36,963 bases of DNA from the NCBI GenBank assembly GCA_020425695.1, contig JAGQRE010000023.1, positions 1 through 36,963 on the forward strand, written 5' to 3'. Source of the stretch: Planctomycetota bacterium (GTDB taxonomy: Bacteria > Planctomycetota > UBA8742 > UBA2392). Positions 958 through 32,312 of this stretch are shown piece after piece (the first letter of the stretch is position 1; each line of letters begins with the position of its first letter). The position numbers were made by a program, and so were the translations under genes. The notes under the pieces were generated by a model. That model was not told where the DNA came from. It did not search any database and saw only the letters and a program-made list of their open reading frames with translations.

Positions 958-2400
958 GTGACGCACGCCGAAGACATCTACTTCTTTTCACACGCGGTAC
1001 TGCAACAGGCGGCGTATCAACTCCTGCCGCCTTCTGTTCGCGCCCAATTACACGAGGTCACAACCGGACTGCTGACAAACCTACCGGAGCCCCCGGCCGC
1101 GGACATCGCGCTGCATGCGCGATTGGCACAGGAAGGCGTCACGCAGTTTGACGATCGGTTGCTAAAGCTGGAACGCCACTGGGTCCGGCAGGCGGGTGAG
1201 GCCGCCGAGGCAGCGTACCGAATTCAGGACGCGCTACGTTTCTATGAACGACTCACGGAGATAGTCGCGGCAGGCACCAGCGATCATATCCGTGTCCGCT
1301 GCAAGATTATCGACCTATTGATGCAACTTGATCGGACTGCAGAAGCGCTGCCCTTGGCCGACAAAGCCGTTGTGGATGCACGACAGCTCAACGACGTCAG
1401 GCTAGAGGCCACGGCACTTTCAGCGCTCGGCGCTGCGGTGCGGGACGGCACCCGCAACGCCGAGTCCGTCGACTACTTCAGAAGTTCAGTGTCGCTGTTT
1501 CGGAAGACAGACGACGAGGCTGGCTTGGCGAAGGCGCTACTCGGGCTGGCTGGTTCACTTTGGACGAAAGGTCAGTTAGGCACCGCAGAGCACGCCGCGA
1601 CGGAGGCATGCACCATCGCCGATCGTTCAGCCGACACCAAGACCAGAGCCAGTGCCTGGATGAACCGCCTCGGCATTGTGCTGCACGCACAGCGGTTTGA
1701 AGAAGCTGAGTCACTGATTGCGAAACTCGCAATAATCGTTGGTGATACTCCTGACCCGGCGCTACGAATGCGCCTGCACGCGTTCCGAGGTTACGCGATG
1801 GATGTCATGGGGCACCCCGCCGAGGCGCGCAGCGACTATGATAAAACCATCGAGCTGGCCAGTGAAATCGGAAACAAGGCGGAAGTAGCACGAAGCCAGA
1901 CAAACCTTGCATCGCTGGATGCTAACGAGATGCGGTATGCCCAAGCTCGCGCCCGTCACGTTGAGGCCGAGCGCGTCGCGCGTGAACTCGGCGACCTTCG
2001 CATCGCGGCGTACGCATGTGCCGGACAGGCAGCCATTGACGAAGCCCTCGGCGACTATCGCTCGTCTCTTGAAAGATACTACGCGGCGATACGCATTGGC
2101 CAAAAACTCGGGATGAACGTGATTCTGCCAGCCTGGAGCATTTCGGCAGGGCTGACACACGCCGAGTTGGGCGACTGGGACGCAGCCACTGAGCTGCTGC
2201 TCAAGTACAGGGGCAATCAACACCTCGGCCTTGAGGCCGGCAGACTCAGCGCGCTGGCCGTCTTTGAATCACAAAGCGGCAACACTCCAAGGGGCATTGA
2301 ACTCGCCCAACAAGCCCGCGACATCCTTCCGGATGACTACGAAATAGGCGACCCACTGCCGAGGCAGTGGGTCGAGAGGGCTTCAAAGCTTTTGGACTAA
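958..2400 (+). CDS. TPR-repeat protein, probable N-terminally truncated remnant of a large AAA/TPR regulatory ATPase
   Basis: 480 aa from a GTG codon. The start is abrupt. Residues 5-35 contain the FSHAVLQQAAYQLLPPSVRAQLH pattern (shortened here as FSHAVLQQAAYQLLPPSV), which normally marks the end of the NTPase region in MalT/AfsR- or PknK-like regulators with an AAA_16 ATPase. The remainder is helical TPR-like repeats with recurring A..LG...E.. units (for example AKALLGLAGSLWTKGQLGTA). The kinase, cyclase or ATPase part expected upstream is missing; mazG occupies that place. There is no Shine-Dalgarno before the GTG, and the frame stays open back to a stop at 892-894. The stop codon overlaps the stop of the convergent tricorn gene by 4 nt. 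It may be a decaying remnant or a stand-alone TPR scaffold. Confidence 0.6.
   Translation: MTHAEDIYFFSHAVLQQAAYQLLPPSVRAQLHEVTTGLLTNLPEPPAADIALHARLAQEGVTQFDDRLLKLERHWVRQAGEAAEAAYRIQDALRFYERLTEIVAAGTSDHIRVRCKIIDLLMQLDRTAEALPLADKAVVDARQLNDVRLEATALSALGAAVRDGTRNAESVDYFRSSVSLFRKTDDEAGLAKALLGLAGSLWTKGQLGTAEHAATEACTIADRSADTKTRASAWMNRLGIVLHAQRFEEAESLIAKLAIIVGDTPDPALRMRLHAFRGYAMDVMGHPAEARSDYDKTIELASEIGNKAEVARSQTNLASLDANEMRYAQARARHVEAERVARELGDLRIAAYACAGQAAIDEALGDYRSSLERYYAAIRIGQKLGMNVILPAWSISAGLTHAELGDWDAATELLLKYRGNQHLGLEAGRLSALAVFESQSGNTPRGIELAQQARDILPDDYEIGDPLPRQWVERASKLLD
2351..2372. repeat. Perfect 10-bp inverted repeat inside the 3' end of the TPR gene
   Basis: ACCCACTGCC (2351-2360) and GGCAGTGGGT (2363-2372) are perfect complements with a 2-nt spacer; an actual loop would be CCGAGG. 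It codes for part of the TPR C-terminus, and it also lies 25 nt beyond the tricorn stop codon on the minus strand. It may therefore act as the 3' end or processing site of the tricorn mRNA. No clear U-tract follows on either strand. Confidence 0.5.
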
Positions 2401-5400
2401 CGGTCCATCTGTGCAAGCAGTTCCTTCACGGTGCGCTCGGTCTGGCGGTCAATTCCCTTATCGAGTTCATCGGGTGTGTTCTCGACAAAGATGTCCGGCT
2501 TGCGCCCGACCAGCTCAAGATTTTCGCCATCCACAGTGTATGCACCCGTACTGGGCAGGCGCATACGGCTTCCGTCCAGCAGCGTGTAGCTGCCTGTTCC
2601 GATGCACCCCCCGGCCGTATCAACACCGACGACAGTGCCGATGCCTAGCTGGCGGAAACCCTCGGCCATGATTTCGGCGTTGCTGAAACTGGCTTGATTG
2701 ATCATGAGAATGCTTGGCTTCTCAAGCGCGATTGAGCGGTAGATGTTCTCGCTTACTTCATTCATGCCGCCGTACTGGCGCTTAAGCCAGGTACGCTTGA
2801 TCAAAATCTCAAGTATGTCGACTGAGGTTGACCCGCCGCCGTTATAACGCACGTCGATCACCACACCTTCTTTGTCGAGCATCTCATCGCCGAGCTCGTG
2901 CTTGAAGTCGGCAAGTGAAGGCCCGTTCATGGCCTGAATGTGGACATAGCCGAGCCGCCCGTCCGAAAGTCGCTCCACCAGATCACGCTGGAACTGAACC
3001 CAGCGGTCGTAGTACAGCCCGTAGGTCTCGCGGCGCGAAATCGGTTTTACGGCGACGTCCCAGGTCGCGCTGGTGCTTTCACTGGCAGTAAACGTCAGCA
3101 CGGTTTTCCTGCCGATCGCGCCCAGCATAATCTCCGCCATGTTGTCGCCCGGGCTGAGCATGCGCCCGTTGATCTTCAACAGAATGGCACCGGGCTCCGG
3201 CTTGCCTTCAGGCAGGTCGCAGGGGCCGCCCTTCACGACTTCAGTAACCTGATAGCGCCCGTCGGCAAGCATCTTCGGTTCAAACATCAGCGTGAGACAG
3301 CCAGTCGAGTCGTTTGCGCCGTCGCTGCGAGAATCTACGCCCGTGAAACCCTGGTGGCTGCTGTTGAGTTCACCGAGCATCTCGTCCATCAGGGCGTCGT
3401 ATTCGTCGCCTGTACTGACGGAGTCCAACGCTTGCTTATAGCGCGCTGTCGTTGCGTTCCAGTTGATGCCGTGGTGGTTGCTGTCATAGAAATAGCTGCC
3501 CATCACCCAGGCCGCTTCGTCGAAGGCTGCGTTTCGAACTTCCATACGATTGCGGCGTTGCTCAACGCGGAAGTTGTAGGTGGTGGTCTTGGTGCTGGCT
3601 ACAGGCATGCTGGTGATCTTGCCGGAGTCCAGCCACCAGAGCGTCTTGCCGTCGGCACTAAGCGACAGCGCTGACTTGCTGCTGCGACTCTGTGTGATCT
3701 GCTTCAGGTCGGGCCCCTTGTCGGGGTCCAGGACCAGCTTCCAGACGTTTGACTGACCCTGCGACGTTCCTACAAAGAAGTAAGTCTTTCCGTCGGGCAG
3801 CGCGACTGGATACAGCTCACGCCCGTCAAGGCTGGTGATGCGCTTTGCGCGGTCCTTGATGCCTTCCCATTCGACTCTTACTTCGGGCTTCTTGGGTTCC
3901 GGTTTGTCGTTCCCGTTGCCAGCGTCGTCAGTCTTGTCTTCTTTGGGCTCAGGCTTCTTGAAAAGCTTGTCGAGCTTGTCTTCCTTGAACGTCGGCGCTT
4001 CCGGGGCCAACTCTACGCTGTAGACGTCGTAGTCACCTTCCTGGTTGTTGATGAAGACTACGCGCTTGCCGTCGGCCGAGAAACGTGCATGACCACATGA
4101 GCCAAACAGATGGGACAGGGCACGCCCTTCACCCGTCACGGCATCCGCAAGCATGATGACGTCGTCGTACAGTTCATTGGATTGCTCATAGAGAACCCAA
4201 CGCCCGTCGGCGCTGATCTGGAAAGCATCTCCGCCCCACAGACCGCCGCCGTGGAAGTTGCCTAGGATCGCCTTTCGATCTGCCATCGGGCTTTCTGACT
4301 TGTCAGCGATCATTCGAATAGAAGCTTCGTTTTCGAGGGCCCACAGGTTGCCGTCGCTGTCGTACGCTGGATGGGCGTGTCGAACGGTCGCGTCGGCGGG
4401 AATAGCGGGCGAGATCTTTGGGCCGCCCGTTTCGAAGTCAGTCATGTCGGCAGTCATCACAACGCCGTCGAGATGGTCCAGAAACGTCAGCCTCAAGCTG
4501 TCTGGTGCCCAGACAATAGAGACTTCTTTCTTCGGCGTGTCGGTTACCTGATACGGCACGGCGTCGTCATCAACCGGCATCACAAACACGTCGCCGCCGG
4601 CGATGAAGGCCAGCTTCTTGCCGTCGGGGCTGACAGCGTATTCGTCGGCCGAAGTCAGTGTGCTGGTCTGTGTTTCCGCACGGCGAACGTCGCTGGCCAG
4701 TTTGATATCGGGTGTTGAGAGCTTCGTGGGCGGGCGCTTACCGAGCTCGCCAACGTGAAGCTTCCAGCCACTGTAGTTACCGGTCGCGAAGGCGATCTTG
4801 CCCCCACGGACGCTGATGTCTTTCGGGTCAAGGCGCGTTTCGCCACCCCACCCCTGCAGTGTCTTGCCATCCAGACCCATCGCCGTCAGACGACCAATCT
4901 GCGAGCTGGCCGACTTGCCGTCCGCATAGGTCACGTAAACCATCTCTGTATCGCTTGTGAACACGGGCCACGCGTCGTGGCTGCGGTTGTTCGTGAGGCG
5001 ACGATGGTTTGTGGTCACGACCCCATCAAAGTCGCAAAGCCAGATTTCACTGTCGGCCGTGCCGTTGTATGCACGCCGGCGGGCAGGGTCGCTGCCGCTT
5101 GTACAGTAAGCGATGTGTTTACCATTAGGCGTAATGCTGGCCTGGTACTCGTGTAGTCCGAAGCCGCCACCGGTGATCGGCCAAGGCTCGCCGCCTTCGA
5201 GGCGCACGATCCATAGGTCGCGACCGTTTTCACGCCGGTAGCTGTTGAAGATGATGCCTGAACTGTCAGGCAGCCAGCAGTCCGGGGCGTCGTAGGAATC
5301 TGCGAACGTCAGTCGCTTCGCTGTTCCGCCTTCTGCGGGCATCACGAAGACGTCGTCATTTCCGTAGCGCCGACTGCGGAACGACAGCCACCTTCCGTCG

Positions 5401-5654
5401 GGTGAAAAGCAAGGGCTGCCATCGTTGTCTTCTGTGATGGTCAGGCGACGCGCATGGCCGCCTTTGCTGGGTACGCTCCAGATATCGCCGTCATAGACAA
5501 ACGCTAACGTGTTGCCGTCCGGCGACAGGGCCGGCTGGCGAAGCACGTTGGTCGCAATCTCCGGCAGCGAGCTGTCCTGCGCGACTGTCTGCTCTGGTTG
5601 GATCGCAAGTAAGGCCAGCAGAATCGCGGGCAACAGGCAGGGAACGTATTTCAT
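2397..5654 (-). CDS. Tricorn-type S41 family peptidase (beta-propeller, PDZ, tricorn core), secreted
   Basis: 1085 aa with a signal peptide (MKYVPCLLPAILLALLAI, then ...TVAQ). Residues ~30-560 hold WD40/PD40-like propeller blades (repeats such as LSPDGNTLAF, FSPDGRWLSF and SPDGKKLAF). A Lys/Glu/Asp/Pro-rich linker follows at ~575-615, then a tricorn C1-like helical domain, a PDZ domain (~770-870) and the S41 protease core. Likely catalytic residues are His in ELNSSHQGF (~765) and Ser in NQASFSNAEI (~988), with the DTAGG oxyanion region after it. Tricorn homologues degrade peptides, in archaea downstream of the proteasome; the signal peptide here implies periplasmic or exported action. GGAG lies 6 nt before the ATG but inside a hairpin. 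The stop overlaps that of the TPR gene. Confidence 0.9.
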   Translation of the reverse strand: MKYVPCLLPAILLALLAIQPEQTVAQDSSLPEIATNVLRQPALSPDGNTLAFVYDGDIWSVPSKGGHARRLTITEDNDGSPCFSPDGRWLSFRSRRYGNDDVFVMPAEGGTAKRLTFADSYDAPDCWLPDSSGIIFNSYRRENGRDLWIVRLEGGEPWPITGGGFGLHEYQASITPNGKHIAYCTSGSDPARRRAYNGTADSEIWLCDFDGVVTTNHRRLTNNRSHDAWPVFTSDTEMVYVTYADGKSASSQIGRLTAMGLDGKTLQGWGGETRLDPKDISVRGGKIAFATGNYSGWKLHVGELGKRPPTKLSTPDIKLASDVRRAETQTSTLTSADEYAVSPDGKKLAFIAGGDVFVMPVDDDAVPYQVTDTPKKEVSIVWAPDSLRLTFLDHLDGVVMTADMTDFETGGPKISPAIPADATVRHAHPAYDSDGNLWALENEASIRMIADKSESPMADRKAILGNFHGGGLWGGDAFQISADGRWVLYEQSNELYDDVIMLADAVTGEGRALSHLFGSCGHARFSADGKRVVFINNQEGDYDVYSVELAPEAPTFKEDKLDKLFKKPEPKEDKTDDAGNGNDKPEPKKPEVRVEWEGIKDRAKRITSLDGRELYPVALPDGKTYFFVGTSQGQSNVWKLVLDPDKGPDLKQITQSRSSKSALSLSADGKTLWWLDSGKITSMPVASTKTTTYNFRVEQRRNRMEVRNAAFDEAAWVMGSYFYDSNHHGINWNATTARYKQALDSVSTGDEYDALMDEMLGELNSSHQGFTGVDSRSDGANDSTGCLTLMFEPKMLADGRYQVTEVVKGGPCDLPEGKPEPGAILLKINGRMLSPGDNMAEIMLGAIGRKTVLTFTASESTSATWDVAVKPISRRETYGLYYDRWVQFQRDLVERLSDGRLGYVHIQAMNGPSLADFKHELGDEMLDKEGVVIDVRYNGGGSTSVDILEILIKRTWLKRQYGGMNEVSENIYRSIALEKPSILMINQASFSNAEIMAEGFRQLGIGTVVGVDTAGGCIGTGSYTLLDGSRMRLPSTGAYTVDGENLELVGRKPDIFVENTPDELDKGIDRQTERTVKELLAQMDR

Positions 5655-22756: not shown

Positions 22757-24070
22757 TCACTCGCCCTTCAAATCCACCTTCATGCTCTTGGCCAGTTCCC
22801 GAGCTTCCTCAAGCGACCGTACACGTTTGCCCGTTAGCTCAAAGATTGCGCCGATGGCCGGCACTTCGTGGAAGTCATCCATCTTCCACAGTTTGATCAA
22901 CGCGCGAATTCCCTCGGGATTTCCGAGTTCACCAATCGCTTCAATCAGATGCTCCCGCCAGGTAAATGCGGCCGTGTCGGTCGCGGCCTTGTCTATGACG
23001 CGCTTGCCCGCCCGCAACGCCTCCGGGTCGTACTCTTCCACAACGACCCGGTCGATCTCTGCTTCAAGCGACCTCAAAGCCTTCGGGTCGTGCAGGCGTC
23101 CGAGCAACTCAACGAAGTACTTGCGATAGCGCCATGTCGTTCCAACCGACTTTCCGTCGCTGTTGAGTGAATACTCAAGCTCATAGATCGCCTGTGGAAC
23201 CACACGCGGGCCAATCCGGTACAAAGTATCGCTGATGTATTTGTTGTAGTTGGGGTTGCCGAAAACCTTGTAGACGGTCTTGCTGATTCGCCGCCCCGTT
23301 TCCGGGTCGATTTCCTCTTCGGTCGCCATCACGAGTTGCCGGTGCGAGGTCCACATCGAAGCACACAGTGGCTCGACCGCCGGGTCGCCGATCTGCACGA
23401 GAATGTCCTGCGCGCGCAGGCAGACATCCTCAATCGGGTTACTCATGGCGACGATCATGTTCGCAATCAGCAACTCTTCGCCGTCTTCGCCGTAAGCAAG
23501 CAGGGATTCAGCGAATCGGCTCCAGTACTCGGTTTCGCGGGTCGGCGACGCATACGGCTGGCGCGTCTGGAACTCGTGCAACAACGCGTACATCCGACCG
23601 TAGTTGCTCAGGCGACGTCGGTTCTCTTCGCTGTCCCAGTCTTTCTTCTGCAGCAATTCACGGATGTGCTCAGGCCACAACAGGTAGGATCGCCACCTGC
23701 GCTGGCTGTCACTGAGATCATCCGGGTCTTCCGGCGGCCATTCGTAGTTCTTTCGCGCGACGCGCCCATCTTTGTCAAAGTCGTACGGCGCACGCGGAAT
23801 TGGGTAGACGTGGCGTCGAACCCGGTGCCAGTCATCAGGCTCCTGAGCTTCCAGCGACGACAGCAAGTCAACCATCTCGGTGCCACGGAACTTCTGCACA
23901 TCCGAGCGGTCGAGAACGATTGTCGGTTCTTTGATCTCGTCCCCGCCGTCGCCTTCGCCCGCTTCAGCGCCGAAACCGCCACCGTCACCCCCACCGCCGT
24001 CACTCGACTGCTGGCCGGAACAGCCGGCTAGGGCAAGTAAAAGCAACGCTAGAGCAAACCAGTTCTTCAA
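22757..24070 (-). CDS. Lipoprotein with HEAT-like repeats
   Basis: 437 aa from a TTG start, chosen because GGAG lies 8 nt upstream and the signal peptide then starts correctly (MKNWFALALLLLALAGC). The lipobox LALAGC gives lipidation at C17. After it comes a Gly/Asp/Glu-rich linker (~22-50). The mature part is helical, with HEAT/Armadillo-like units (VRRHVYP..., ICLRAQDILVQIGDPAVEPLC, LGRLHDPKALRSLEAEI, IGELGNPEGIRALIKLW), which suggests a protein-binding scaffold at the outer or inner membrane. It is a predicted substrate of the Lgt in this window. First gene of a minus-strand cluster ahead of gap; divergent from ald. The exact function is unknown. Confidence 0.75.
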   Translation of the reverse strand: MKNWFALALLLLALAGCSGQQSSDGGGGDGGGFGAEAGEGDGGDEIKEPTIVLDRSDVQKFRGTEMVDLLSSLEAQEPDDWHRVRRHVYPIPRAPYDFDKDGRVARKNYEWPPEDPDDLSDSQRRWRSYLLWPEHIRELLQKKDWDSEENRRRLSNYGRMYALLHEFQTRQPYASPTRETEYWSRFAESLLAYGEDGEELLIANMIVAMSNPIEDVCLRAQDILVQIGDPAVEPLCASMWTSHRQLVMATEEEIDPETGRRISKTVYKVFGNPNYNKYISDTLYRIGPRVVPQAIYELEYSLNSDGKSVGTTWRYRKYFVELLGRLHDPKALRSLEAEIDRVVVEEYDPEALRAGKRVIDKAATDTAAFTWREHLIEAIGELGNPEGIRALIKLWKMDDFHEVPAIGAIFELTGKRVRSLEEARELAKSMKVDLKGE

Positions 24071-24210
24071 AGCGAATCTCCGGGGGTACGCGAGCTGCAC
24101 GCGGTGAAACGGGGCAGCCCTATCCAACCAATGATAGGCCCTGTCGGCAATCTCCCGTCAGAAACCGGTGTCGGTCCGTAGGTCACCTAAACCTTCTGAT
24201 TTCCCGAGAA

Positions 24211-26627: not shown

Positions 26628-27098
26628 ATGTCCGCAGATTCTGTGATTGATGCGTTGTCACCTGTGCTTGAGCGTCTGAAGACTCTCGACCTCAATGACC
26701 CCGGCGCGGCCAAAGAACTTCTGGACATGGAGTATCCGCTGCACACGGAGTTCGGTGACAAGCTGCGCGAGCTAGCAAAGCAGGGCGTGGATGCCGGCTG
26801 GTTGTGCGGACGCGAGGCCGGTGATTCAAAGTTCTCACGAGTTGCCAAGCCCGACGCCGGGCAGGGTTTCAGCATTGATGCAGTCATGCTGTGGGGCGAC
26901 GGCCCCTGGCACAAGCATGTAAAGGGTGAGGTAAACTGCATGCTGTCGTGGGAGGGCGAACCTGAATTTTGCGGTTTCAAGGAAGGCTGGGCGGTCTTCC
27001 CGCCGGGAAGCGCCCATGTGCCAAGCGTGAAGAACGGCAAGATGCTGATCTTCTATATGCTCCCCGATGGTGCGCTTGAGTGGAAGAAGCCTGAGTAA
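26628..27098 (+). CDS. DUF4863 / 4-hydroxylaminobenzoate lyase-like protein
   Basis: 156 aa with GGGAG just upstream of the ATG. The N-terminal ~50 residues are helical; the rest is a cupin-like beta domain. DAGWLCGREAGDSKFSRVAKP, FSIDAVMLWGDGPWHKHVKGE, and WAVFPPGSAHVPSVKNGKMLIFYMLP (shown in pieces) match the DUF4863 pattern, which includes PnbB, the 4-hydroxylaminobenzoate lyase of nitrobenzoate degraders. Histidines of WHKHVKGE and SAHVP could bind a metal. No other nitroaromatic genes are nearby, so the true substrate is unknown and I do not transfer the enzyme name. A hairpin terminator lies ~20 nt after the stop. Confidence 0.7.
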   Translation: MSADSVIDALSPVLERLKTLDLNDPGAAKELLDMEYPLHTEFGDKLRELAKQGVDAGWLCGREAGDSKFSRVAKPDAGQGFSIDAVMLWGDGPWHKHVKGEVNCMLSWEGEPEFCGFKEGWAVFPPGSAHVPSVKNGKMLIFYMLPDGALEWKKPE

Positions 27099-27878: not shown

Positions 27879-29285
27879 GTGACTGAAATTCTCGCCAAAG
27901 AACATTGGAACAAGGTCCTCACTGACCTGCAGGATCACGTAGGCGAGGAAGTCTTCAACCTTTGGTTGAGGAACACGCTGATCGTCCGCCTCGAACCCGA
28001 ACTGATTGAAGTCGGAGTACCCAACCTAGTCGTATCGGACTGGCTCAAGAGCCAGTACACGCACGAAATTCTGGACAGCGTCAACCGCGTGGTCGGCTAT
28101 CGCCCGGGCGACATCAAATACAGCGTTAACGGACACCTCTTCCGTCAGCTTCGTAAACAGGAAGAGACGGCACGCCGCGCCGCCGGTGAACCCAGCCCGA
28201 CCGCGCGTAACCGCGCGAAAGTTGAGCCCGCGCCCAAGCAGATCTTCAACCTGAATGAGCGTTACACGCTGGACCGCGTGATTGTCGGGCCGAACAACCA
28301 GCTCGCCTTCAACTGCGCGTGGGAAGTCGCCCGCAAGCCTGGCGAAAGTTTCAACCCGCTCTTCATTTTCGGGCGTACCGGCGTCGGCAAGACACACCTG
28401 TTGCAGGGCATCGCCCGCGAGGTTCTGGAGCGCTTCCCCAGCAAAGAAACGCTGTATATCCCTGCCGAGTACTTCGTAAATCAGTACGTGCAGTCGCTTC
28501 AGAAGCGCGATGTTGAGCCATTCCGTCAGCGCTTCCGGAACCTGGACATCCTGATCATCGACGATCTTCACTTCCTGGCCGGCAAGGATGCCAGCCAGCA
28601 GGAGTTGTTGCACACGCTGAACGCGCTTGAGCAATCCGGCAAGCAAGTGCTGCTCGCAAGCGACCAGCACCCGCGCGATCTTGAAGAGTTCATGGAGCAC
28701 CTCACGACGCGGTTCATGCAGGGCATGATCGCCGAGATTGAGCTGCCACCGCGTAACACACGCCTTGCCATCATCAACAGCAAGCTTGAGGGGCACCGTC
28801 AACTGTTCCCAGTGGCCGTCATTGAGTTTCTCGCCGACAAGCTCGAATGCAACGTGCGCGAGATGGAAGGGTACGTCACACGACTGGTCGCACTGGCCGG
28901 GCTGACGGGTGAGAAGGTAACCCTGCAACTGGCAGAGCAGGCCTTGCAGGATTTCCTGAGCAGTCGCAGCCGGATGGTTGACCTGACGGATATCGAGAAC
29001 GTGGTAATCGCCCACTACGGTGTCAGCAGCGCTCAGCTTCACAGCCGGTTGCGCAAGCGCCCGGTGGCTCTGGCACGACAGGTCTGCATGTTTCTCGCGC
29101 GTCGTCTTACCAGCTACAGCCTGAAAGAGATTGGTCGTTTCTTCGGCGGCAAAAATCACACAACGGTTGTGTTTGCCGTACAGGCCATCGAAGAGAAGGT
29201 CAAAAAGTCCGCGGCGTTGAACGATGAAGTTGAGCATCTTCGCCGAACCTTGATGGGTGACGGACCTAACACTCAAACCCGCTAG
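27879..29285 (+). CDS. dnaA: Chromosomal replication initiator protein DnaA
   Basis: 468 aa, normal length, GTG start with GGAGG upstream. Domain I (LQDHVGEEVFNLWLRNT), linker II (~90-115, short), AAA+ domain III with Walker A FGRTGVGKTHLL and Walker B ILIIDDLHFLAGK, sensor TTRFMQGM, and domain IV with the HTH (RQVCMFLARRLTSYSLKEIG). The DNA-contact signature reads FGGKNHTTV where nearly all bacteria have FGGRDHTTV: the base-contacting Asp (E. coli D433) is Asn and the preceding Arg is Lys. Other DNA contacts (the Arg aligned with R399; His and Thr of HTT) are kept. dnaN, recF, rnpA and rpmH are absent from its surroundings. Confidence 0.97.
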   Translation: MTEILAKEHWNKVLTDLQDHVGEEVFNLWLRNTLIVRLEPELIEVGVPNLVVSDWLKSQYTHEILDSVNRVVGYRPGDIKYSVNGHLFRQLRKQEETARRAAGEPSPTARNRAKVEPAPKQIFNLNERYTLDRVIVGPNNQLAFNCAWEVARKPGESFNPLFIFGRTGVGKTHLLQGIAREVLERFPSKETLYIPAEYFVNQYVQSLQKRDVEPFRQRFRNLDILIIDDLHFLAGKDASQQELLHTLNALEQSGKQVLLASDQHPRDLEEFMEHLTTRFMQGMIAEIELPPRNTRLAIINSKLEGHRQLFPVAVIEFLADKLECNVREMEGYVTRLVALAGLTGEKVTLQLAEQALQDFLSSRSRMVDLTDIENVVIAHYGVSSAQLHSRLRKRPVALARQVCMFLARRLTSYSLKEIGRFFGGKNHTTVVFAVQAIEEKVKKSAALNDEVEHLRRTLMGDGPNTQTR

Positions 29286-29315
29286 AAATCATTCGGCAAC
29301 GCACTACAATTCCGG

Positions 29316-29343
29316 CTCGCCGCATTGCGGCGAGTTTCTTTTG
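29316..29343 (+). terminator. Terminator of dnaA
   Basis: CTCGCCGC (29316-29323), loop ATT, GCGGCGAG (29327-29334): a perfect 8-bp stem followed by TTTCTTTTG. It lies 30 nt after the dnaA stop codon. It separates dnaA from the following aro fusion gene, which must then have its own promoter or depend on readthrough. Confidence 0.8.
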
Positions 29344-29373
29344 CCTCGGGGGCATCACCCGCGGAGCTATCAA

Positions 29374-31380
29374 TTGGCAATGCAACAACCCCTTGTCGTT
29401 GGCGTTACGCCCATAACGGGTGAGCCCAAACGTGTACAGACCATCCCGGACGAACCAACCCGGACGGCCGTTGAGTTGCGCCTCGATCTCGGCGCCGGTT
29501 GGCACACGGTTCTGAACGACCCGGACAAATTCGTTGAGCTTGTGAGCTGGTTCGGCGACGACGTCGCCGAGACCTGCCCCCCACCGCTGGTTATCGGCAC
29601 ATGCCGTCGCCGCGAAGATGGCGGCGAGTTCAACGGCGACGAACAACAACGACTCAAGATCCTTGAGTTGTGCGGCAAGGTCTGCGACTTCGTTGACGTC
29701 GAGAGCGGTGTCCGTGCCAAGGTTCCCGAGAAGAAGATCATCCGCAGTTACCACGACCTTGATGGCGTTCCAGACTTCGACGAAGTCGCAAACGAGCTCG
29801 CCCTTGAAGGCGGAACCATCATCAAGATTGTGGGCACCGCAAAACGCCTGAGTGACAATCTGATCGTACGTGAGTTCCTGCAGGATCGCCTTGACGCAAC
29901 TGCATTCCTGATGGGCGAGTACGGCCAACCTTCAAGAATTCTGGCACTGGCCTGGGGTAGCCGCATGACCTACGGGTCGCTCAGCGGCGGCTCGATTGCG
30001 CCCGGCATGGTCGACTTCCAGCGCCTCGTGAACCTGTACCGGGCACAAGAGATTACACGCGACTACGAGTTGTTTGGCATCACCGGGCGACACGTAGGCC
30101 ACAGCCTCAGCCCTGCCATGCACAACGCTGCGCTTCGCGTATTGCAGCAGAAGCGCGTTTACCTGCCGCTGGCCGCAGCGGACGTGCAGGACTTTGTTGA
30201 GTTCGCGCGCGGCATAGGGCTTGTCGGTGCGAGCATCACCGTGCCGTTCAAGGAGTCCGTCGTGATGCGCTGCGCCAAGCTGGACGAGGTCACCGAGCGC
30301 GTGGAAGCAGCCAATACACTCATTTCGCTGGGCAGCGGCGGCTACCGCGGGCGCAACACAGATGTGCAAGGATTCATCGACGACCTGAAAGTCGAGTATG
30401 ATGGCCCCCTGTTCGGGCGGACCGCATTGGTTCTGGGTGCAGGTGGTGCCGCCCGGTCTGTCGTGTTCGCCCTGCGCCGTGAAGGTGTTGCGGTACAGGT
30501 GTTGGCCCGCCGCGAGGAACAGGCAACCGAACTCTGTAGTGAATTAGGCGGCGAGCCCGTTGCGGAAGCTTCAGGCAACTACGACCTGATCATCAATACA
30601 ACACCTTGCGGCATGCAGGGCAAACACGCCGGCGAAATTGCGGTTCCATGGCAGAGACTGCAACCTCACCTCGCTCACGATGCGCTGGTCTACGATCTGA
30701 TTTATGAGCCGGATGAGACTCCGCTGCTGAAGATGGCAGCGCAATCGAAGTTCCGGGTGGCAAATGGGCTAGGCATGCTGCGGGCGCAGGCTGCTCTGCA
30801 GGCGAAGATCTTCGGCTATCGTCTGTTGTTCGACCCACCTGAACCACCGAAACATTCGGAGCACATATGGTTGATCGGCTATCGCGGCGCAGGCAAGTCC
30901 GCTTTGGCCAGAGAGCTTGCCATCAAGCTGCGGCGTCGTGCCGTCGACACCGATGCGCAGATCGAGCTGAAGGGTGGCGCGCCAATAGCCAAAGTGTTCG
31001 AGACCCAGGGCGAAGAAGCCTTCCGCAAACTTGAAGTTGAGGCCGTAGCGAAAGCGGCTGTCGGCAAGCCGGATGCTGTGATCGCAGCCGGCGGTGGCGC
31101 GATTGAGCGCGAGGAAAACATCAAGGCGATGCGATCATCCGGCACGGTCATTTTTCTCGACGTGCCGGTGGATACGCTGATCAAACGCCTGTCGCGCGAT
31201 GACGACAGACGCCCATCGCTTACTGGCAAGCCCGTTGAAGAAGAAGTTCCCGAAGTGCTGTCCCGACGTCTGCCGCTGTACGAGCGCGCGGCGCACCTTC
31301 GATTTGAGCTTGAAAATAAGCCAATCCGGGAGCTGGCTGGCGAAATCGCCGCGAAGCTGGCAGAGTTCCGAGGTAAATGA
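29374..31380 (+). CDS. Trifunctional shikimate-pathway enzyme: 3-dehydroquinate dehydratase (AroD) - shikimate dehydrogenase (AroE) - shikimate kinase (AroK)
   Basis: 668 aa. Domain 1 (~1-225), type I dehydroquinase: ELRLDLG, IIRSYHDLDGVP (catalytic His), IIKIVGTAKR (Schiff-base Lys), SRILALAWGSRMTYGS. Domain 2 (~228-485), shikimate dehydrogenase: GRHVGHSLSPAMHNAAL, TVPFKESVV (catalytic Lys), GRNTDVQGF (catalytic Asp), VLGAGGAARSVVFAL (NADP). Domain 3 (~496-668), shikimate kinase: GYRGAGKSAL (Walker A), VDTDAQIE, FRKLEVE, AAGGGAIE, RRPSLTG lid. All three active sites look complete, covering three successive steps from dehydroquinate to shikimate-3-phosphate. The TTG at 29374 has GGAG 7 nt upstream; ATG 29380 is the alternative. 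The stop overlaps the next ATG (ATGA), starting an operon. Confidence 0.93.
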   Translation: MAMQQPLVVGVTPITGEPKRVQTIPDEPTRTAVELRLDLGAGWHTVLNDPDKFVELVSWFGDDVAETCPPPLVIGTCRRREDGGEFNGDEQQRLKILELCGKVCDFVDVESGVRAKVPEKKIIRSYHDLDGVPDFDEVANELALEGGTIIKIVGTAKRLSDNLIVREFLQDRLDATAFLMGEYGQPSRILALAWGSRMTYGSLSGGSIAPGMVDFQRLVNLYRAQEITRDYELFGITGRHVGHSLSPAMHNAALRVLQQKRVYLPLAAADVQDFVEFARGIGLVGASITVPFKESVVMRCAKLDEVTERVEAANTLISLGSGGYRGRNTDVQGFIDDLKVEYDGPLFGRTALVLGAGGAARSVVFALRREGVAVQVLARREEQATELCSELGGEPVAEASGNYDLIINTTPCGMQGKHAGEIAVPWQRLQPHLAHDALVYDLIYEPDETPLLKMAAQSKFRVANGLGMLRAQAALQAKIFGYRLLFDPPEPPKHSEHIWLIGYRGAGKSALARELAIKLRRRAVDTDAQIELKGGAPIAKVFETQGEEAFRKLEVEAVAKAAVGKPDAVIAAGGGAIEREENIKAMRSSGTVIFLDVPVDTLIKRLSRDDDRRPSLTGKPVEEEVPEVLSRRLPLYERAAHLRFELENKPIRELAGEIAAKLAEFRGK

Positions 31381-32312
31381 AGGAAGCCCTCGAGATCATA
31401 GGTGAAATGCCGCCCGCATTCTGGCTGGTGCTGGCGTTTTTCCTCGGGTCCTTCGTCGGCAGCTTCCTCAACGTCGTCGTGTATCGCCTGCCGCGTAACT
31501 GCCTATCAATCAACAATCCGAAACGCAGCTTCTGCCCAAGTTGCAAAACCCAACTGAAGTGGAGCGACAACCTGCCCATCGTCGGCTGGGCGGTCTTGCG
31601 CGGCAAGTGCCGCTACTGTGGCGTTCGTTTCGGTGTACGGTATCCGCTGGTCGAGTTGTTGACCGCGACGCTGTTCACGCTGGCGACTTGGCGGGTGCTT
31701 ATAAGTGACGGTAACGTCGCCAGCCAGCCTCTCGCTTGGCTGACGTTGCTGCATACGGTCCTTGTGATCAGCGTGTTGCTGCCATGGGCGCTGATCGACC
31801 TCGACCTGCGCATGATTCCTGACAAACTCACCCTCGGGCCACTGATCGTGTTCGTTCCGTTTGCGGCGCATGTGGACGCCATGAAATTCGGGCTTCCGGG
31901 CAGCGTCGATCCGCTGATCTTCCATTTCGGCCCCACATGGCTGAACGGAATCCTCAGTGCACTAACGGCCGGTATCGCGGCCTACGCCGGACTCTGGTTG
32001 ATCGGGAAAACCGCAAACGTCATCTTCGCCAAACGCGTTCAGGAAATGGGCGGCGAGGCCATGGGAGGCGGCGACATTAAGCTTATGCTGCTGATGGGCG
32101 TGATGCTGGGCTGGCCGAAACTGGTAGCTGCGTTCTTTATCGCGATTTTCGCCGGGGCGATCATCGGAGTTTTCCAGATCATCCTGCGCAAAGGGCCGGG
32201 CACACCGTTCGGGCCCTATCTGGCACTTGGGGCAATCACAGCAGCGCTTGGCACGAAGTGGCTTGTCGCGCTGTATGACTGGTACATGAGCTTTCTGCAG
32301 AGTCTGGTATGA
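31377..32312 (+). CDS. Prepilin peptidase (type IV leader peptidase, A24A)
   Basis: 311 aa polytopic membrane aspartyl protease that cleaves and N-methylates type IV prepilins or type II secretion pseudopilins. The N-terminal cytoplasmic domain has the two CxxC pairs (C53/C56 in FCPSCK, C78/C81 in KCRYCG) and the LGSFVGSFLNVVVYRLP opening. Catalytic Asp residues lie in LIDLDLRMIPDKL and GGGDIKLMLLMG. Length and layout are typical of PilD/GspO. No pilin genes are in the window. The ATG overlaps the stop of the aro fusion (ATGA), with GAGG just upstream, and its stop overlaps the next gene by 4 nt. Confidence 0.94.
   Translation: MKEALEIIGEMPPAFWLVLAFFLGSFVGSFLNVVVYRLPRNCLSINNPKRSFCPSCKTQLKWSDNLPIVGWAVLRGKCRYCGVRFGVRYPLVELLTATLFTLATWRVLISDGNVASQPLAWLTLLHTVLVISVLLPWALIDLDLRMIPDKLTLGPLIVFVPFAAHVDAMKFGLPGSVDPLIFHFGPTWLNGILSALTAGIAAYAGLWLIGKTANVIFAKRVQEMGGEAMGGGDIKLMLLMGVMLGWPKLVAAFFIAIFAGAIIGVFQIILRKGPGTPFGPYLALGAITAALGTKWLVALYDWYMSFLQSLV

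Follow-up and report, generated by a model that had tools for sequence, protein, structure and literature searches.

Can one bacterial polypeptide carry out three successive steps of the shikimate pathway and, if so, how did such a protein arise? The question is raised by a gene, aroDEK, in the 36,963-nucleotide stretch of DNA analysed here (hereafter the window), which comes from a Planctomycetota MAG of 4.14 Mb in 341 contigs. A first-pass annotation made from the sequence alone described the product as a fusion of AroD, AroE and AroK within 668 residues, each part with its key residues visible, and viewed the domain order as a rearrangement of the tail of the fungal AROM protein.

Layout of the gene and its active sites

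The forward strand is free of stop codons from 29257 to 31380, and reading from the TTG at 29374 gives 668 residues with no internal stop. In most close relatives the aligned codon is TTG or GTG with a GGAG ahead of it, and most have no counterpart of the ATG at 29380; the TTG start is thus well supported. Three Pfam families match above their gathering cut-offs, namely DHquinase_I at residues 32–222 (6e-25), Shikimate_dh_N at 236–316 (5e-17) and SKI at 504–662 (2e-40), and Shikimate_DH, at 21.8 bits, falls slightly under its cut-off of 24.3. The uninterrupted frame and the positions of these domains bear out both the proposed fusion of AroD, AroE and AroK in one polypeptide and the proposed order DHQase-SDH-SK. 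The features of the locus are collected in Table 1. The prepilin peptidase gene that follows is a common neighbour, adjoining aroDE or aroDE-aroK in many Planctomycetota, the window's family included.

Table 1. Features of the aroDEK locus, in window coordinates
Feature	Position	Strand	Remarks
dnaA	27879..29285	+	directly upstream of aroDEK; precedes aroDEK in several family members
GGAG, probable ribosome-binding site	29363..29366	+	7 nt before TTG; kept in relatives
aroDEK, fused 3-dehydroquinate dehydratase (type I) - shikimate dehydrogenase - shikimate kinase	29374..31380	+	668 aa; TTG start, TGA stop
Type I 3-dehydroquinate dehydratase domain	29386..30045	+	residues about 5-224
Shikimate dehydrogenase domain	30064..30813	+	residues about 231-480; ends after Q472 helix
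Tether, dehydrogenase to kinase	30814..30861	+	16 residues; core LLFDPPEPPKHSEH
Shikimate kinase domain	30862..31362	+	residues 497-663
Prepilin peptidase (A24)	31377..32312	+	4-nt overlap with aroDEK stop (ATGA)

Active-site residues were mapped by reference to E. coli AroD, AroE and AroL. The dehydrogenase retains its catalytic Lys293 and Asp330 (Lys65 and Asp102 of E. coli AroE), and the kinase retains the Walker A sequence GYRGAGKS (502–509), Asp527, Arg551, the GGG at 573–575 and, in the lid and C-terminal region, Arg613 and Arg632. In the dehydroquinase the Schiff-base Lys151 and the catalytic His127 are kept. The statement that the key residues are visible therefore stands for these sets; it does not extend to three further positions of E. 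coli AroD, which are changed in the first domain (E86 to D82, S232 to I208 and Q236 to M212). We take Glu86, Ser232 and Gln236 to have roles in substrate binding and catalysis. The changes extend through the window's family, where the Gln236 position is Met in 15 of 15 members, the Ser232 position is hydrophobic and the Glu86 position is Asp in 11 of 15. The E. coli residues at these positions are not strict markers of type I dehydroquinases, since Asp at position 86 and other residues at 232 occur in unfused relatives; Met at the Gln236 position is also found in two fused proteins beyond the window's family.

Other sources of these activities were looked for in the same genome and in related ones. 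SKI, Shikimate_dh_N and DHquinase_I each have a single match in this genome, all within the aroDEK ORF, and profile searches of the genome, which is 88.7% complete, gave no DHquinase_II match and no separate aroD, aroE or aroK. Neither a type I nor a type II dehydroquinase occurs elsewhere in any genome of the window's family. A duplicated shikimate gene set was sought in this genome and in its relatives of the order, and none was found; no relative of the order carries a second full set. The genes for DHQ synthase (aroB) and chorismate synthase (aroC) lie on other contigs together with two EPSP-synthase-family genes, one of them presumably a putative murA, so that the pathway is otherwise present. 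It is most likely that the aroDEK protein supplies shikimate-pathway steps 3–5; the result comes from an incomplete genome, whose missing part could hold a separate copy, and is strengthened by the same result in relatives.

The protein would convert 3-dehydroquinate to 3-dehydroshikimate, then to shikimate and then to shikimate 3-phosphate, at three active sites on one chain. We conclude, with considerable confidence, that aroDEK encodes a trifunctional enzyme for steps 3–5 that arose by loss of the stop codon between aroDE and a coupled aroK. From the sequence we infer that all three domains are active. The gene structure fixes their ratio at 1:1:1, and we infer that the fusion serves such fixed production; channelling of intermediates is possible. 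The authors of work on Candida albicans Aro1 doubt that the joining of domains by itself raises flux (PMC9074039).

The main alternative is that the protein is bifunctional in practice, the fused dehydroquinase being weak or dead and 3-dehydroshikimate being made by another, unrecognised enzyme. Q236M, E86D and a hydrophobic residue at Ser232 mean that the dehydroquinase could be weak, and there is a precedent in C. albicans Aro1, whose DHQase domain has been inactivated by substitutions in the active site (PMC9074039). Lys151, His127, Arg78, Arg188, Glu34 and Arg36 are, however, intact in all 15 family members, E86D is shared by 11 of the 28 unfused planctomycete AroDEs whose genes adjoin aroK, and the family's genomes offer no other dehydroquinase of either type. 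We consider this alternative improbable, and keep to the trifunctional reading.

Two further observations concern the active sites of fused proteins. The NADP-binding motif NRTxxR of AroE reads ARREEQ in the window (30505–30522, residues 378–383) and its last residue is Gln in 12 of the 15 family members; because the motif is altered in this way, cofactor preference may differ. Separately, the dehydroquinase domain is diverged in some fused proteins of families f59 (L044, L046, L048) and f62 (L045, L063–L065). Among these, three have Leu at the R82 position (including the translation of L044 from f59), the Arg at R213 is absent from four and the catalytic His is missing from one, and an f59 genome, G374, has no DHquinase_I match. 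To judge by these sequences, such proteins may have an altered or decaying first domain.

Origin of the fusion and nature of the junction

An AroD-AroE fusion has been reported for 198 Planctomycetes assemblies (PMC11237513). In our data the AroDE fusion is widespread across Planctomycetota and homologous to the N-terminal part of aroDEK, aroK is often the next gene after aroDE, and in trees the window protein clusters with other planctomycete AroDEs. In five families (f46, f28, f72, f6 and f70; L022–L035, L042, L047 and L049) aroDE and aroK share a reading frame and are separated by one stop codon, the kinase start falling a few codons past the aroDE stop; in L022 and its genus mates a GGAG is present within the last aroDE codons. 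Fusions are found in no fewer than ten planctomycete families (f1, f2, f4, f8, f31, f39, f59, f62, f64, f73, f98), and in the relatives from the order the fused frame is full length, which answers the call in the first-pass annotation for full-length homologues.

These arrangements suggest a route in which a planctomycete aroDE fusion gene was directly followed by a translationally coupled aroK, and loss of the intervening stop codon would have created a single three-domain frame. In a tree of the AroDE part with 75 rows, a single clade of all fused rows is rejected (p-AU 0.006) and the fused label needs 8 changes. Removal of many long-branched rows, leaving 46, gives the same outcome (p-AU 6e-5), with supported branches forcing at least 3 changes, and the kinase-part tree agrees weakly (p-AU 0.048 against one fused clade). 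As the fused forms are not one clade, repeated stop loss fits, and the fusion has probably arisen more than once in these phylogenies. In principle, repeated fusion and one early fusion followed by several splits are both compatible with the tree. The position of G368 bears on this choice: this fused form is sister to unfused, mostly neighbouring gene pairs inside a larger unfused clade, which speaks for a separate fusion in at least one case.

The plant enzyme also has a place in these trees. Arabidopsis DHQ-SDH falls among the planctomycete AroDEs, with G010 as its neighbour (support 99/93), and in the 46-row tree the clade that encloses them has support of 100/99. An AroD-AroE fusion is also present in Acidobacteria. 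The position next to G010, in trees without Acidobacteria, would be consistent with descent of the plant gene from a planctomycete-like source.

The junction in the window's family differs from that of most other proteins compared. The family has 29–31 residues between the conserved Gln in the final dehydrogenase motif and the glycine that opens Walker A, as against 28–59 in the other proteins. The amphipathic last helix of the dehydrogenase, which unfused AroDEs retain, as do most of the other fused proteins, has left no trace in the family's junctions; it would have been lost there along with the stop codon. AlphaFold, run on 26 fused sequences, gives a mean pLDDT of 91.6 and a pTM of 0.88, the tether also being confident; docking of the kinase is a tentative prediction. 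A more elaborate proposal is that AroD-AroE-AroK proteins had several origins from the same coupled pair and that loss of the helix rigidly fixes the kinase beside the shikimate-releasing site for direct hand-over of shikimate; we think this unlikely as a whole.

No description of the AroD-AroE-AroK order was found in the literature searched, and an earlier mention in the literature or in database annotation is possible. One phylum offers a natural graded series, comprising separate genes, neighbouring genes, pairs with one in-frame stop and the full fusion, in which comparison of fused with unfused homologues could show what the joining of successive metabolic enzymes buys a cell.

Known systems and the reality of the fused frame

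The closest likeness in the PDB is to Arabidopsis DHQ-SDH (2gpt, 2o7q), the top sequence match to the window protein (2e-46), onto which the predicted AroD-AroE part fits as one unit in Foldseek (TMt 0.77, rmsd 4.5); unlike aroDEK, the plant protein has no kinase domain. Planctomycete AroDE matches aroDEK in its two N-terminal domains and in their order; aroDEK adds the kinase behind them, with the last SDH helix absent in the window's family. Methanomicrobiales, in the Archaea, have an AroE-AroK fusion for which no DHQase domain is reported (PMC11237513), and which by description shares the SDH-SK fusion with aroDEK.

Fungal AROM (Aro1) combines the three activities of aroDEK with two more in a single chain. 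Its order is DHQS-EPSPS-SK-DHQase-SDH, whereas that of aroDEK is DHQase-SDH-SK, with aroB and the EPSP-family genes elsewhere. Permuting SK-DHQase-SDH cyclically gives the order seen here, which is the argument in favour of a rearranged AROM tail, whether inherited from a common ancestor or acquired by gene transfer. The trees, profile scores and predicted arrangement are all against it. AROM lies outside all planctomycete sequences in both AroDE-part trees (75 and 46 rows); the SDH part scores 186 bits against the bacterial aroE model and 102 against the AROM SDH model; and the predicted AroD-AroE part fits AROM poorly (TMt 0.30–0.39, rmsd about 19, for fragments from Schizosaccharomyces pombe and C. 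albicans). Adjacent aroDE-aroK pairs, moreover, offer a local origin. Kinship with the AROM tail is accordingly rejected as very improbable. The likeness in content is best read as convergent, given the position of AROM outside the planctomycete sequences and the poor fold fit, and the cyclic permutation as a coincidence, since aroK would have been joined to the end of an aroDE fusion already in place. This indicates that shikimate enzymes became joined in AROM-like fashion independently in bacteria, in another order.

One full-length, stop-free aroDEK frame is present in 16 of the 17 genomes examined from the window's order, and identity to the window protein is highest, at 80%, in the nearest relative and lowest, at about 32%, in G166, an order mate. 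The remaining genome, G193 (84% complete), matched none of the shikimate families searched, and its assembly probably lacks that stretch of the genome. The frameshift or stop between domains that would have undone the annotation is thus absent from independent assemblies and, with the same single open frame in these genomes and the conserved start and GGAG, we conclude that aroDEK is not an assembly error. That sequencing or assembly had artificially removed a stop codon, an idea to which the fragmented MAG and the single in-frame stop at the junction of unfused relatives might lend colour, is scarcely credible, and is refuted by the independent assemblies, the stop-free frame being shared by 15 family genomes (with 29–31 residues between conserved points at the junction) and a fused order mate.

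Extra N-terminal domains were also considered for fused relatives with open frames of 800–1000 aa. They were rejected, the upstream parts looking like out-of-frame reading of the upstream gene, and a scan of the aligned, trimmed sequences of fused relatives gave no further Pfam domain.

Other observations in the window and the class

One genome of the same class, G151 (96% complete), lacks matches to all four of the shikimate families used in the searches; it is possibly an auxotroph or a user of unrelated enzymes. On the minus strand of the window, a 456-aa ORF at 22757–24127 has no NCBIfam match, and a 1085-aa protein at 2397–5654 has TolB-like propeller matches and, at its C-terminus, a match to S41 peptidases, a tricorn-like combination. 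At 26628–27098 the window encodes a 156-aa protein matching PnbB, of the 4-hydroxylaminobenzoate lyase family, and this gene is kept upstream of dnaA in close relatives.
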